From Oscillospiraceae bacterium (lineage in GTDB: Bacteria > Bacillota > Clostridia > Oscillospirales > Ruminococcaceae): 64,000 nucleotides of DNA. The stretch is from NCBI GenBank assembly GCA_022787085.1, contig JALFVE010000047.1, positions 1-64,000 of the forward strand. Direction: 5' to 3'. The notes beneath the pieces are model-generated. The model saw only the letters and a list, made by a program, of their open reading frames with translations. It was not told the DNA's origin and made no database searches. Both the position numbers and the translations under genes were made by a program. Of this stretch, positions 48,127 to 53,988 are shown one piece after another; within the stretch, counting starts at the first letter, position 1; every line of letters begins with the position of its first letter.

Positions 48127-48172
48127 ACATATCCCGCAGATGTTTAAAACGCCTGCGGGATAATTTTTTTAT
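48127..48172. terminator. Terminator between convergent genes
   Basis: ATCCCGCAGATG...CGCCTGCGGGATAATTTTTT. Confidence 0.6.
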
Positions 48173-49644
48173 GAAGCAACAGCGCTGTATCTTTCCCGTC
48201 CGATTATCTCATCCATAACAGCCATGGGGGAGATATTGCCCGACTTCACCATGTCAAATATAGCAGGAGAGAAGCCCGAAACCAGAGCAGCGCCCGTCCG
48301 TGAAAGGGTAACGGGAATCGCCGAGCCTCTGCTGCAAAGATTCCAGAAAACAATTTCGGGAAGCTCGTAGCCATATAAGGCATATCTCTTCTTCATAATA
48401 TTGAAGAGGGGCTGACTGTTTCCGCCCTCAACGCACATATCGAACTGCATATCCGAAAGGATGTACAGTCTTTTTGGCATATCGCTTTTGGGGACCTTGT
48501 TTGAAACGGCAGTTTTCAGAATAAGATGGAAAACCGCCTCAAGGTTGGTGTTTGCGCACTCATTGAAGGAAGCGCAGTACTGAGCCTTTTCGGAAATGTC
48601 ACCGCCCTTGACTTCAACGAGGCGGGGCTTTTCGGAAAAGGTGATGAAATGACCGCTGAAAGCTCCCTTGTTATGCTCGGCAAAGTAAATGCCAAGGGAA
48701 AGCGCAGCGTCAATGGGACGGGGATTATTGCCCCATGTCATTGAGCCCGAGCCGTCAATTACCGCAATGGCATTTTCGGTGGAAGCGCCATGGTCGGGCA
48801 GACTGTTCCATGTAACGTCCAGAGCCTTTTTCTCCTCTGCCGAAAGCGTATCGGTAAGCACCCTGCGGATTATTTCATAGGGATAAAGGGTGTCTGCATG
48901 AAGCACAGCCTTGCCCGAGCTTACATTTTGGAGATATTCGCTGTACCGCTCGCCGTCGTTTCGGATAAAAGCCTTTTTGTACTTGAACATAGCACCCGAG
49001 GGCTGCTTCTCGTAGTCAAAGGTGTAATCCATGACTCTGAGGCGGTTTTCGGTAATGTCGGTGTATTTTCTCAGAGCGGAAAGGGACTTGCGGTAATTCT
49101 TCTCGCTCATGCCCATATTATCGCAGAGTCTTTTTGCATTTCTGACAGTTTCCTCAGAGGAAGCGTTCACCGAGGGAAGCCATTTGGCAAGGAGAGAAAC
49201 GGGCTTGCCCTCCGCCATTCCCGCAATATCCTCATCGAGCTGAGCCTTGATGAGCTTAACGGCTTCATCCTCGCAGGGGGTGTCCAGAAGAGTGCAGAGA
49301 TCGTCAAATCTGCCGTATTCCGCAAAAAGGGGAATGTTCCTGATAACGCTTTCGGGAGCGGAAAAAGCAAGGTGCTTTACCGCAATGCGGAAAAAGCGTC
49401 TTTCCCCCAGACCGCCTCTGACATCTCTTGCAAAGAAGATGATCTTCATGGTCTTTTCGGGATCTTCGGCATATGCCCTGAGAACAGCCTTGCCGATCTC
49501 CTCCTCGGAGGAATTTCTCATAGCCCCCGCCTTGAAAAACAGGTCGAGGCAATCGGAATGGGTGGATATGTAAGCCCTTCCGCCGTTTTCGGTAAAGGTT
49601 TCGTTAGAAGTTTCCTTCATAGCATTTAAAAAATCAAACATCAT
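48169..49644 (-). CDS. Ro60/TROVE-like (DUF2828-like) alpha-helical repeat protein with C-terminal vWA domain
   Basis: MKIIFFARDVRGGLGERRFFRIAVKHLA; MIDAS AVIDGSGSMTWG; adjacent to rtcB and tRNA-mimic RNAs. RBS AAGGAG. Confidence 0.8.
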   Translation of the reverse strand: MMFDFLNAMKETSNETFTENGGRAYISTHSDCLDLFFKAGAMRNSSEEEIGKAVLRAYAEDPEKTMKIIFFARDVRGGLGERRFFRIAVKHLAFSAPESVIRNIPLFAEYGRFDDLCTLLDTPCEDEAVKLIKAQLDEDIAGMAEGKPVSLLAKWLPSVNASSEETVRNAKRLCDNMGMSEKNYRKSLSALRKYTDITENRLRVMDYTFDYEKQPSGAMFKYKKAFIRNDGERYSEYLQNVSSGKAVLHADTLYPYEIIRRVLTDTLSAEEKKALDVTWNSLPDHGASTENAIAVIDGSGSMTWGNNPRPIDAALSLGIYFAEHNKGAFSGHFITFSEKPRLVEVKGGDISEKAQYCASFNECANTNLEAVFHLILKTAVSNKVPKSDMPKRLYILSDMQFDMCVEGGNSQPLFNIMKKRYALYGYELPEIVFWNLCSRGSAIPVTLSRTGAALVSGFSPAIFDMVKSGNISPMAVMDEIIGRERYSAVAS

Positions 49645-49661
49645 AAAACACTCCTTTTCAC

Positions 49662-49840
49662 AAGACAGGATTTTATACTAAACACCTATTGAATTATGGG
49701 AATCTCTCGCCGCAAAATCCATATATGCAAGCTTTTGCGGCGATTTCTTCTCCATAATTCTAATGGTGTTTAGTATTACCGATAAAATCGGGCAGGATTT
49801 GAACCTGCATTAACCAATTAAAAAATGCTGTGACTGTCTT
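49662..49840 (-). ncRNA. Unit 6 of CAGCAA stem-loop array, interrupted by MITE copy 3
   Basis: 5' AAGACAG-TCACAGCA...T-arm-like GCAGGTTCAAATCCTGC + CCGATTTTATCGG hairpin ...[MITE]... CTGTCTT 3' (pairs with AAGACAG). Confidence 0.65.
49676..49775. mobile_element. 100-bp MITE, copy 3 (inverted relative to copies 1 and 2)
   Basis: TACTAAACACCTATTGAATTATGGGAATCTCTCGCCGCAAAATCC...CCATAATTCTAATGGTGTTTAGTA. Confidence 0.88.
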
Positions 49841-49855
49841 AAAATTTTTGCTGAC

Positions 49856-51578: not shown

Positions 51579-51726
51579 GTCGCTTTCGATGTTTCCATTA
51601 TAAACCAAAAAAACTCATTCGTCATTTAAAAAAGTCTGCGAACACTCTGATGCGTATTGATTTGATTTTCAAAATGTGATATTATGGAAATACAATAAAA
51701 TAATTTATAAGAACGAAGGTGAGAAC

Positions 51727-52965
51727 ATGAGCGGTTTTTCTGAGCTTATCAAAAATTTCGACAAAACGAGAGATTATATCAGAGACTTTTTTATATACGG
51801 CTTCAAGGTGCGAAACGAGTTTACGGGCAAAAGCAGCCGCACCTATGATGATGAAAAAAGGAGAGCGGAAAGCTGGCTTGGGGATATATTCAGATATGAC
51901 AATACCCGACGGGGGAAGCAGGTGTCCATCACCGTAGACAGCGGGCATATAGCCGAAAATCCGCTTTACAGCGCCTATTATTCAAAAAGCTTCACCGACA
52001 ATGATATAAAGCTTCATTTCATGCTCATGGATATCCTTGACGGCAGAAGCCTTAACGTACATGAGATAACCGAAGCCCTGAACAGCGCATATGAGCAGCT
52101 TTTTGACGAGCAGACCGTCAGAAACAAGCTCAAGGAATATGTGACCGAAGGGATATTCATATGCGAAAAAAAGGGACGAGCGGATATATTCACCCTTTCC
52201 GCCGATACCGCCGAAAGCTTTTTCACAGAGTATGAGGGGCTTGAGGACGCCGTAAAATTCTTTTCCGAATCCCCCGAGTTTGGCGTGGTGGGCAACAGCA
52301 TTTTGAGGACCGCAGGGATAAAAAACGATATTTTTCTGAATAAGCATAATTATATCGTCCATACCCTTGAGGACACCATTCTGCTTGACCTGCTTAAAAT
52401 AATGGAGGAAAAGCGCCTTGCCGCAATAACCAATTTCGGCAGAGGAGGAAAAGCCTCGGAGAATGAGGGCGTGCCGCTGAAAATATTCTCATCGTCCCAA
52501 ACGGGACGGCGGTATGCGGTCATGTATCTTCCCAAATATAAGCGCTATAATTCCTTCAGGCTCGACTACATAAAAAACGTAACCCCTCTTGGAATATGCG
52601 GAGAATATGATGACTATGCCGAAAAGCTCAGCCGCTGCGAGGAAAAATGCTTCGGCGTGTCCTTCGGGGAGAGAAGCGGCGAGGGAGCGGGAGGGATATT
52701 CCGCATGGTGCTGAGCATAAATGAGGAAAGCGAGGGCTTTGTCCTTGACAGACTCAGCAGGGAAAAGCGCTGCGGAAATATCCGCAGGATAGACGAAAAT
52801 CTGTTTGAATATACCGCCGAGGTCTTTGACGTAAATGAAATGATGTCGTGGGTCAAGACCTTTATCGGCAGGATAGTGTCCGCCGAAAGCACCAATAAGC
52901 AGGTAACGGATAAGCTGTATCGGGATATAGCCCGTATGAAGCGTATCTACCGCAGAAAGGAGTAA
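51727..52965 (+). CDS. WYL-domain transcriptional regulator
   Basis: DNDIKLHFMLMDILDGRSLNVHEI; RRYAVMYLPKYKRYNSFRLDYIKNVTPLG; C-terminal WCX-like extension. Confidence 0.82.
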   Translation: MSGFSELIKNFDKTRDYIRDFFIYGFKVRNEFTGKSSRTYDDEKRRAESWLGDIFRYDNTRRGKQVSITVDSGHIAENPLYSAYYSKSFTDNDIKLHFMLMDILDGRSLNVHEITEALNSAYEQLFDEQTVRNKLKEYVTEGIFICEKKGRADIFTLSADTAESFFTEYEGLEDAVKFFSESPEFGVVGNSILRTAGIKNDIFLNKHNYIVHTLEDTILLDLLKIMEEKRLAAITNFGRGGKASENEGVPLKIFSSSQTGRRYAVMYLPKYKRYNSFRLDYIKNVTPLGICGEYDDYAEKLSRCEEKCFGVSFGERSGEGAGGIFRMVLSINEESEGFVLDRLSREKRCGNIRRIDENLFEYTAEVFDVNEMMSWVKTFIGRIVSAESTNKQVTDKLYRDIARMKRIYRRKE

Positions 52966-52971
52966 TAAGGC

Positions 52972-53988
52972 ATGAAGCTTTTTTCAGAAATATACGGAGC
53001 CTATTTCCGCTGTACGGAAGCAATACTGTCCGAGGGGAAGCTTAGCGAAAAAAGGCTTCGGGAGATAGTAAGCGAAAAAGCGTTCAGGGATTCGCAGCTG
53101 TTCATCCCCGAAAAGCTCATACCCGATAAAAGCGGAAATTCCCCATGGGGACTTCTGAAGCGGGATGAAAAGGGCAGGCTCTGCTCCGTCCTTGAACAGT
53201 CTCCTCCGAGGATAATCACAGCTCTGCAAAAAAGCCGTATCAAAGCCATGCTGTCCGACCCGAGGATAAGGCTGTTTCTTTCCGATGAGGATATATCCGC
53301 CCTGTCCGAACGCCTAAAAGACGTGAAGCCCCTGTATAATCGGGAATATTTCCGTGAATTTGACCGCTTCACCGACGGAGATGATTATGAAGACCCCCAT
53401 TACAGAGAGGTGTTCGGCATAATATTAAAAGCAGTGCGTGAGCGGGAGATTTTGACCATAGAGCTTGTTTCCCGCCGGGGAATACGAATGACCAAAAATG
53501 TTCTTCCCGTAAAAATCGAATATTCACGGAAGAACGATAAATTCCGTGTCTACTGCATAACCGCCCCGCAAAAGGAGGAATATCTTTTCAATATTTGCAG
53601 GATAGAAAGAGCGATGCCCACAGGAAAGCATGAAAGCTTTGCCCCCGATATGGAGGAATTTTTCAGCAGGAGGCGGTGTGAAAAGCCCGTAACAGTGGAA
53701 GTAAGCAGCGAGCGGAATGCAGTGGAGCGGTTCATGATGGAGTTTGCAGCCTATGAAAAGCGAAGCGAGCTTGATCTTGAAACGGGGAAATGCCATGCCT
53801 CGATATACTATGACAAGCAGGACGAAACGGAGCTTCTCATCATGCTTCTGGGCTTCGGACCCGTGCTGAAAATAACAGGGCCCGAGGAATTTCTTGAAAA
53901 GGCAAGGGAGCGGGTGGAAAGGCAGTATGAGCTGTTTTATCCGAAGGGAGAAGATATTGCGGCAGAGGGAGAGCAGGCGACGGTATAA
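52972..53988 (+). CDS. WYL-domain protein, second of tandem pair
   Basis: REILTIELVSRRGIRMTKNVLPVKIEYSRKNDKFRVYCITAPQKEEYLFNICRIERAMPTG. Confidence 0.85.
   Translation: MKLFSEIYGAYFRCTEAILSEGKLSEKRLREIVSEKAFRDSQLFIPEKLIPDKSGNSPWGLLKRDEKGRLCSVLEQSPPRIITALQKSRIKAMLSDPRIRLFLSDEDISALSERLKDVKPLYNREYFREFDRFTDGDDYEDPHYREVFGIILKAVREREILTIELVSRRGIRMTKNVLPVKIEYSRKNDKFRVYCITAPQKEEYLFNICRIERAMPTGKHESFAPDMEEFFSRRRCEKPVTVEVSSERNAVERFMMEFAAYEKRSELDLETGKCHASIYYDKQDETELLIMLLGFGPVLKITGPEEFLEKARERVERQYELFYPKGEDIAAEGEQATV

Follow-up and report, generated by a model that had tools for sequence, protein, structure and literature searches.

Tandem Y-RNA-like units carrying pieces of tRNA beside rtcB and a Ro60-like DUF2828 gene in an Oscillospiraceae genome and in phages

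Six Y-RNA-like units between rtcB and a Ro-like gene

The locus at 48169-53988 of a 64,000-nucleotide stretch of DNA from an Oscillospiraceae bacterium (assembly GCA_022787085.1, contig JALFVE010000047.1, positions 1 to 64,000; hereafter the window) was analyzed. Between rtcB, which encodes an RNA ligase, and a gene for a Ro-like protein of the DUF2828 family it contains six tandem Y-RNA-like units, some of which carry recognizable pieces of tRNA, and units of the same kind were found beside the DUF2828 genes of phages. This anatomy and the repair context of the locus are well supported. As to function, the reading that we tentatively place first is that the RNAs would serve as decoys or baits for tRNA-attacking enzymes, with repair by RtcB under the control of a pair of WYL regulators.

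An earlier reading made from the letters alone (hereafter the sequence-only reading) had placed a tRNA-mimic array between rtcB and the Ro-like gene, and an array was indeed located there. It had not described the anchor motif common to the units, the intact anticodon stem-loops, the bodies with D, anticodon and T arms present in relatives, or the occurrence in phages. All units follow one plan: a basal stem, a few bases and CAGCA(A), a cargo, and the closing strand of the stem, which ends in TTG or GTG in units 2-6. They were located by stem and anchor, since minimum-energy folding of the whole region scrambles them. The features are as follows:

49661..50325, minus strand: RNA-only array of six units, 665 bp, between rtcB and the DUF2828 gene
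50221..50325, minus strand: unit 1, YrlA-like circularly permuted tRNA module (Rfam YrlA) on a basal stem with CAGCAA; T-arm 50276-50292, capped acceptor 50264-50275, D-arm 50246-50261
50156..50205, minus strand: unit 2, basal stem AAGGCGCA/TGCGCCTT, CAGCAA, AU-rich hairpin without tRNA feature (folding z = -3.8)
50089..50144, minus strand: unit 3, basal stem AAGGCAC/GTGCCTT, CAGCAA, bare anticodon stem-loop
49942..50066, minus strand: unit 4, basal stem ACGGCTCA/TGAGCCGT, CAGCAA, hairpin of 5 bp and 7 nt at 50003-50019, then T-arm at 49985-50001 (folding z = -4.0)
49855..49927, minus strand: unit 5, basal stem, CAGCAA, cargo hairpin with no recognised tRNA feature; conserved in three relatives
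49661..49840, minus strand: unit 6, basal stem AAGACAG/CTGTCTT, CAGCA, T-arm 49792-49808, short capped hairpin 49779-49791

The association of stem and anchor was assessed with 5-mers only in 40 loci: a perfect stem of 7 bp or more precedes 129 of the 218 CAGCA sites (59%), against a background of 6% for all 5-mers and a single case when CAGCA was tested on the opposite strand. A strict unit finder recovered 129 units in 38 of the 40 loci, from 1 to 7 per locus, and 3 units in 282 kb of control DNA from the genome of the window. Pooled units are defined by their stem pairing, and the support for the stem therefore comes from the 5-mer test and from paired changes between orthologous basal stems (GGTGC/GCACC to GGTAC/GTACC; GGCAC/GTGCC to GGCGC/GCGCC).

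Unit 6 is interrupted at 49675-49776 by a near-perfect palindrome of about 100 bp, absent from unit 6 of three relatives. At least 11 copies, 97-100% identical, are present in the genome (others in the window lie at 12121-12228 and 13825-13929); it is a miniature inverted-repeat transposable element (MITE)-like element. The long hairpin at these positions was accordingly rejected as a part of the RNA design, and a match to 6S-Flavo (E = 0.15) was dismissed, as it falls on this repeat.

Pieces of tRNA carried by the units

The cargo of unit 3 is the bare anticodon arm UUCAC-CUGCCAC-GUGAA (DNA TTCAC-CTGCCAC-GTGAA) at 50103-50119, of the Gly GCC type. The corresponding loops of three close relatives are CUGUCAA, CUGUCAC and CUGCCAA, two of them of the Asp GUC type, and the CUGUCAC loop is identical to that of the tRNA-Asp of its own genome. 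In relatives the hairpin of unit 4 has the Glu-UUC-like loop CTTTCAG; orthologs in loci L014 and L015 carry AAG-CTTTCAG-CTT in two to three tandem copies before the T-arm, possibly a local amplification of an anticodon bait. In three further loci (L017, L023 and L061) the cargo GGGGA-CUGAAAA-UCCCC is exactly the anticodon arm of the tRNA-Phe of the window's genome.

To count such cases, ten units overlapping ARAGORN calls outside the window were excluded. Exact anticodon loops of real tRNAs then occur 14 times in 168 bacterial units, compared to 0.21 in shuffles; for T-loops the figures are 29 and 0.16. Over the bacterial, viral and hold-out sets the enrichment of real anticodon loops is about 30-80 times, and in none of these sets did any of 150 shuffle runs give more than 2 such loops. 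Several cargo architectures were distinguished: bare anticodon arms, T-arms, permuted modules joined to the basal stem at their anticodon end, and linear bodies of D, anticodon and T arms in which the basal stem replaces the acceptor stem. ARAGORN identified no tRNA in the window, which rules out that the array elements are intact tRNAs. The cargo of unit 5 (GGGACGCAG...GGGCGCTGCGAGGAA) is strongly conserved in L013, L014 and L015 and matches no tRNA part; it may mimic some other RNA.

The same units beside phage DUF2828 genes

DUF2828 homologues were found in 681 phage records, several of them annotated "Ro-like RNA binding protein". Units adjoin the gene in Bacillus phages, in mycobacteriophages LeBron, which has three, and LilDestine, in Listeria phage P100plus, in Staphylococcus and Enterococcus phages and in a Felix-O1-like phage, and several sit among tRNA genes. 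In 80 IMG/VR loci, 156 units lie on the same strand as the DUF2828 gene and 4 on the opposite strand, and exact anticodon loops number 31 in phage and viral units compared to 0.37 in shuffles. A hold-out set of 98 further loci gave a strand bias of 190:3, with 10 exact loops compared to 0.34. The loop CTTTTAA was found on eight different stems, so that the loop itself, not tRNA ancestry, appears to be selected.

In the phage loci inspected the units are kept and the WYL pair is lacking, and RtcB is nearby in only some of them, P100plus among these. P100plus has three units just upstream of its DUF2828 gene. In the P100-like Listeria phage CKA15, high transcription has been reported for three unannotated regions at most 2 kb upstream of an Rsr-like gene, and the authors of that study suggested Y RNAs (PMC12282133); the two genes are probably the same. 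Lys-UUU and Asn-GUU are among the tRNAs that the anti-phage nuclease AriB is known to attack (PMC12409363), and loops of both types are present in the viral cargo.

The Ro-like protein and its neighbours

The genes of the locus are arranged in the order and orientation that the sequence-only reading had given, with all parts present: the WYL pair on the plus strand, divergent from rtcB, and rtcB, the array and the DUF2828 gene all on the minus strand.

48169..49644, minus strand: Ro-like protein, DUF2828 and DUF7788 (von Willebrand factor A, vWA), 491 aa; Pfam, PHROG, AlphaFold2 fold match, metal ion-dependent adhesion site (MIDAS)
50334..51578, minus strand: RtcB RNA ligase (PF01139, 7.2e-110), from the conserved ATG
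51579..51726, no strand: divergent intergenic region shared by rtcB and WYL1, 148 bp between conserved start codons
51727..52965, plus strand: WYL-family regulator 1 (PF13280, E = 0.0018, under the curated cut-off), neighbour in 30 of 41 loci
52972..53988, plus strand: WYL-family regulator 2 with WCX (PADLOC WYL 1.9e-13; PF25583, E = 0.006, under the cut-off), neighbour in 28 of 41 loci

The product of the gene at 48169 had been called a "Ro-like vWA protein", related to TROVE or DUF2828. It is a DUF2828 member by Pfam (PF25043, 2.7e-47; PF11443, 1.8e-36; VWA_2 weak) and matches PHROG 850, an RNA-binding protein family, at 6e-134; Pfam TROVE (PF05731) has no match in this protein or in the genome. 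In its AlphaFold2 model (predicted local distance difference test, pLDDT, 79), the top ten fold matches in the PDB are all TROVE/Ro60 structures, one of them a phage Ro60 (E = 5e-8 to 3e-5, TM score 0.4-0.5), and the MIDAS residues of the vWA domain are invariant. The "Ro-like" label thus stands at the level of fold and not of Pfam TROVE membership: the model predicts a Ro60-like protein in which a vWA domain with MIDAS closes a ring of helical repeats.

Clustering of the open reading frames around DUF2828 in 41 loci, many of them from metagenome-assembled genomes (MAGs), confirmed that the neighbourhood is conserved. The strongly recurrent families are DUF2828 itself (41), WYL1 (30), WYL2 (28) and RtcB (23), and the next commonest occurs in 6 loci; the WYL pair and RtcB are the sole recurrent DUF2828 neighbours in related Oscillospiraceae. 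Two types of RtcB are found near DUF2828: a window-like type, 67-92% identical and upstream of the array, and a distant type, 25-30% identical and usually downstream of DUF2828. The closest named relatives are Oscillospiraceae MAGs with DUF2828 proteins 83-86% identical. The distribution is patchy: of 20 genomes in the genus 11 have DUF2828, as do 39 of 400 in the family and 20 of 394 in the class, and the Pfam model, which is less sensitive, finds it in 8 of 400 genomes from the phylum. Three close relatives have an extra gene of 519 aa between WYL1 and rtcB (L013, about 4530-6080) that the window locus lacks. A second RtcB, 32% identical, is encoded outside the window (genome G000, contig C2:38526-39632) and no DUF2828 gene adjoins it.

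The start of rtcB is listed as a TTG at 51608; the conserved ATG was chosen, a Met common to the starts of relatives. The listed start of WYL1 is a GTG at 51676. With the conserved starts, the region said to be shared by the divergent WYL pair and rtcB is 148 bp long. Weak sigma-70-like sites lie on both strands of this region; between 49600 and 51800, promoter-like sites are not significant in number (7 compared to 3.5 in shuffles). The PADLOC scan gave generic WYL matches only. As the sequence-only reading had remarked, RtcA is not seen: PF01137 has no match anywhere in the assembly, which is 95% complete. Calling the locus a "complete RNA-repair locus" was consequently overstated, although WYL, RtcB, the Ro-like protein and the RNAs are all there. 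Elsewhere in the window, riboswitches were identified for cobalamin (7487-7704) and S-adenosylmethionine (SAM; 16782-16896).

Possible functions: decoys, tethers or sensors

Ro is known to bind Y RNAs by their basal stem, the opposite end recruiting a partner (PMC4726728, PMC8394870). By analogy, the partner-recruiting end of the DUF2828 RNAs would be the tRNA part. The DUF2828 protein most likely binds each of the six RNAs through the shared basal stem and CAGCAA, and the piece of tRNA presented could then differ from one RNA to the next, whether an anticodon stem-loop, a T-arm or an elbow/acceptor module. These pieces would most likely be decoys or baits for tRNA-attacking enzymes, such as anticodon nucleases and tRNase toxins, in conflicts between phages and bacteria or among bacteria. 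The ends that metal-independent tRNases leave are sealed by RtcB (PMC7824862), which here would reseal cleaved tRNAs, and perhaps cleaved baits, ending in a 2',3'-cyclic phosphate and a 5'-OH. Expression would be under the control of the WYL pair, presumably with induction by tRNA damage. Phages would use a ribonucleoprotein (RNP) of this kind too, and apparently do so with no WYL pair. Hundreds of phages carry a DUF2828 gene, often with such units next to it, which suggests that tRNA look-alikes are employed by both sides in their conflict over tRNA.

The occurrence of native anticodon loops on hairpins that have nothing else in common suggests loop-reading enzymes as the targets. Ser loops (UGA, GCU) are among these loops, and seryl-tRNA synthetase does not read the anticodon; tRNA synthetases are therefore unlikely to be the sole target.

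Several observations weigh against decoy action. By the rules applied, about 60% of units are without any tRNA feature, so that a tRNA decoy cannot explain everything. The units are related by descent, hence the loop counts are not independent and are inflated. An excess of Lys-UUU in the first viral set (11 of 31, compared to 8 of 340 real tRNAs) was not replicated in the hold-out (1 of 10) and was rejected as a rule. Finally, Salmonella YrlA is not cut by an SOS-induced tRNase; Hughes et al. nevertheless propose it as a competitive inhibitor (PMC7790460).

The other readings are ranked after decoys or baits, tethers before sensors, by judgment and not by measurement. A serious competitor, to which we give about one chance in three, is that the tRNA-like cargos recruit tRNA-binding enzymes (PNPase, modification or maturation enzymes), a different one for each cargo, to the Ro ring, where damaged tRNAs and other structured RNA would be degraded or repaired. 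Tethering is the known role of Y RNAs in Deinococcus and Salmonella, with a tether to PNPase in RYPER, and both DusA and TruB accept YrlA as a substrate (PMC8394870). A YrlA-type module is present in the array, and cargos with only an elbow and no anticodon would be accounted for. By itself, however, tethering leaves unexplained the exact anticodon loops on unrelated stems, the change of anticodon between close relatives, and the use by phages.

It is rather improbable that the units are sensors, sacrificial baits whose cleavage products, with 2',3'-cyclic phosphate ends, would be the ligand of the WYL proteins and switch on rtcB as tRNA halves do through RtcR. RtcR does bind cyclic-phosphate tRNA fragments (PMC7790460, PMC9879122) and the WYL pair is conserved together with the array, yet the phage loci inspected keep the units without it. 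That the array is debris of decayed tRNA genes or pseudogenes from mobile elements is very improbable: it would fit the many partial-tRNA cargos and the real tRNA genes around phage units, but the units share anchor motif and stems, are strand-biased (156:4 and 190:3), show paired changes in orthologous stems and keep exact loops on unrelated stems.

Extended to its full scope, the decoy reading would make DUF2828-Ro RNPs a dedicated tRNA-decoy system of bacteria and phages alike: a common protein cradle would hold a changeable panel of baits, anticodon loops and elbows, supplied by the tandem units. For phages it would be a counter-defence directed at anticodon nucleases, and bacteria would use it against tRNase toxins and attacking phages; in this general form the proposal is speculative and rather doubtful. 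The role of Ro proteins and Y RNAs in bacterial RNA-repair operons was left unaddressed by Hughes et al. (PMC7790460); Y-type RNAs with true anticodon stem-loops make it directly and cheaply testable as the blunting of anticodon nucleases. Were the RNAs to act so, they would be a new RNA-level weapon in the phage-bacteria conflict. The basal stem and CAGCAA anchor can also be used to annotate non-coding gaps beside phage tRNA clusters.

Comparison with known systems

The closest known arrangement is rsr-yrlBA-rtcBA of Salmonella (PMC7790460, PMC9879122), which likewise has a Ro-fold protein, tRNA-like Y RNAs, RtcB and a divergent regulator gene. The window differs by having DUF2828 and not TROVE, six units and not two Y RNAs, no RtcA, a different basal stem, and anticodon stem-loop cargo. 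The sigma-54 activator RtcR is not in the divergent position, where the WYL pair is found instead. The proposal of a WYL-controlled Firmicute counterpart with expanded RNAs holds insofar as a conserved module resembling the Salmonella one exists with WYL, the presumed regulator, in the place of RtcR.

As in bacterial Y RNAs generally, the units are encoded beside a Ro-type gene and a basal stem joins their 5' and 3' ends. Unit 1 resembles YrlA in its T-arm, capped acceptor and D-arm; units 2-6 are not YrlA-like. The match of unit 1 to Rfam YrlA (RF02553; 38.4 bits, E = 8.6e-7) does not reach the gathering score of 69, and the TROVE-linked YrlA matches examined also score 28-40. Firmicute TROVE loci have YrlA-like RNAs with another basal stem, GAGGCG..GGTTACTTCG..TTCCTCG, and no comparable CAGCA units were found in those inspected. 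This different stem makes the DUF2828 RNAs a separate class by their presumed protein anchor, the principle of tRNA mimicry being common to both. TROVE-linked YrlA-like RNAs in L245, L248 and L249 have a CUGUUAA (Asn-type) hairpin before the T-arm; anticodon mimicry may thus reach beyond the DUF2828 class. Bacterial Y RNAs with tRNA-like domains are known already; the CAGCA class with anticodon loops appears new within the literature that could be searched, though DUF2828-linked Y RNAs or anticodon-loop cargo may have been described before.

Phage Ro-like (DUF2828) proteins, e.g. Mycobacterium phage LeBron gp53 and Listeria phage CKA15_055, are homologous to the window protein and have the same adjoining RNA units; their loci differ in lying within tRNA clusters, with no WYL pair and with RtcB near only some. 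Phage tRNAs that evade tRNA-targeting defences (PMC10264068, PMC11555353, PMC12409363) are likewise phage-encoded tRNA-related RNAs. Those are intact tRNAs with altered, cleavage-resistant loops, by which phages counter tRNA-cleaving defences (PMC10264068), whereas the units described here are unchargeable and have loops of the native type. Native loops are what a decoy should keep, the opposite of resistant phage tRNAs.

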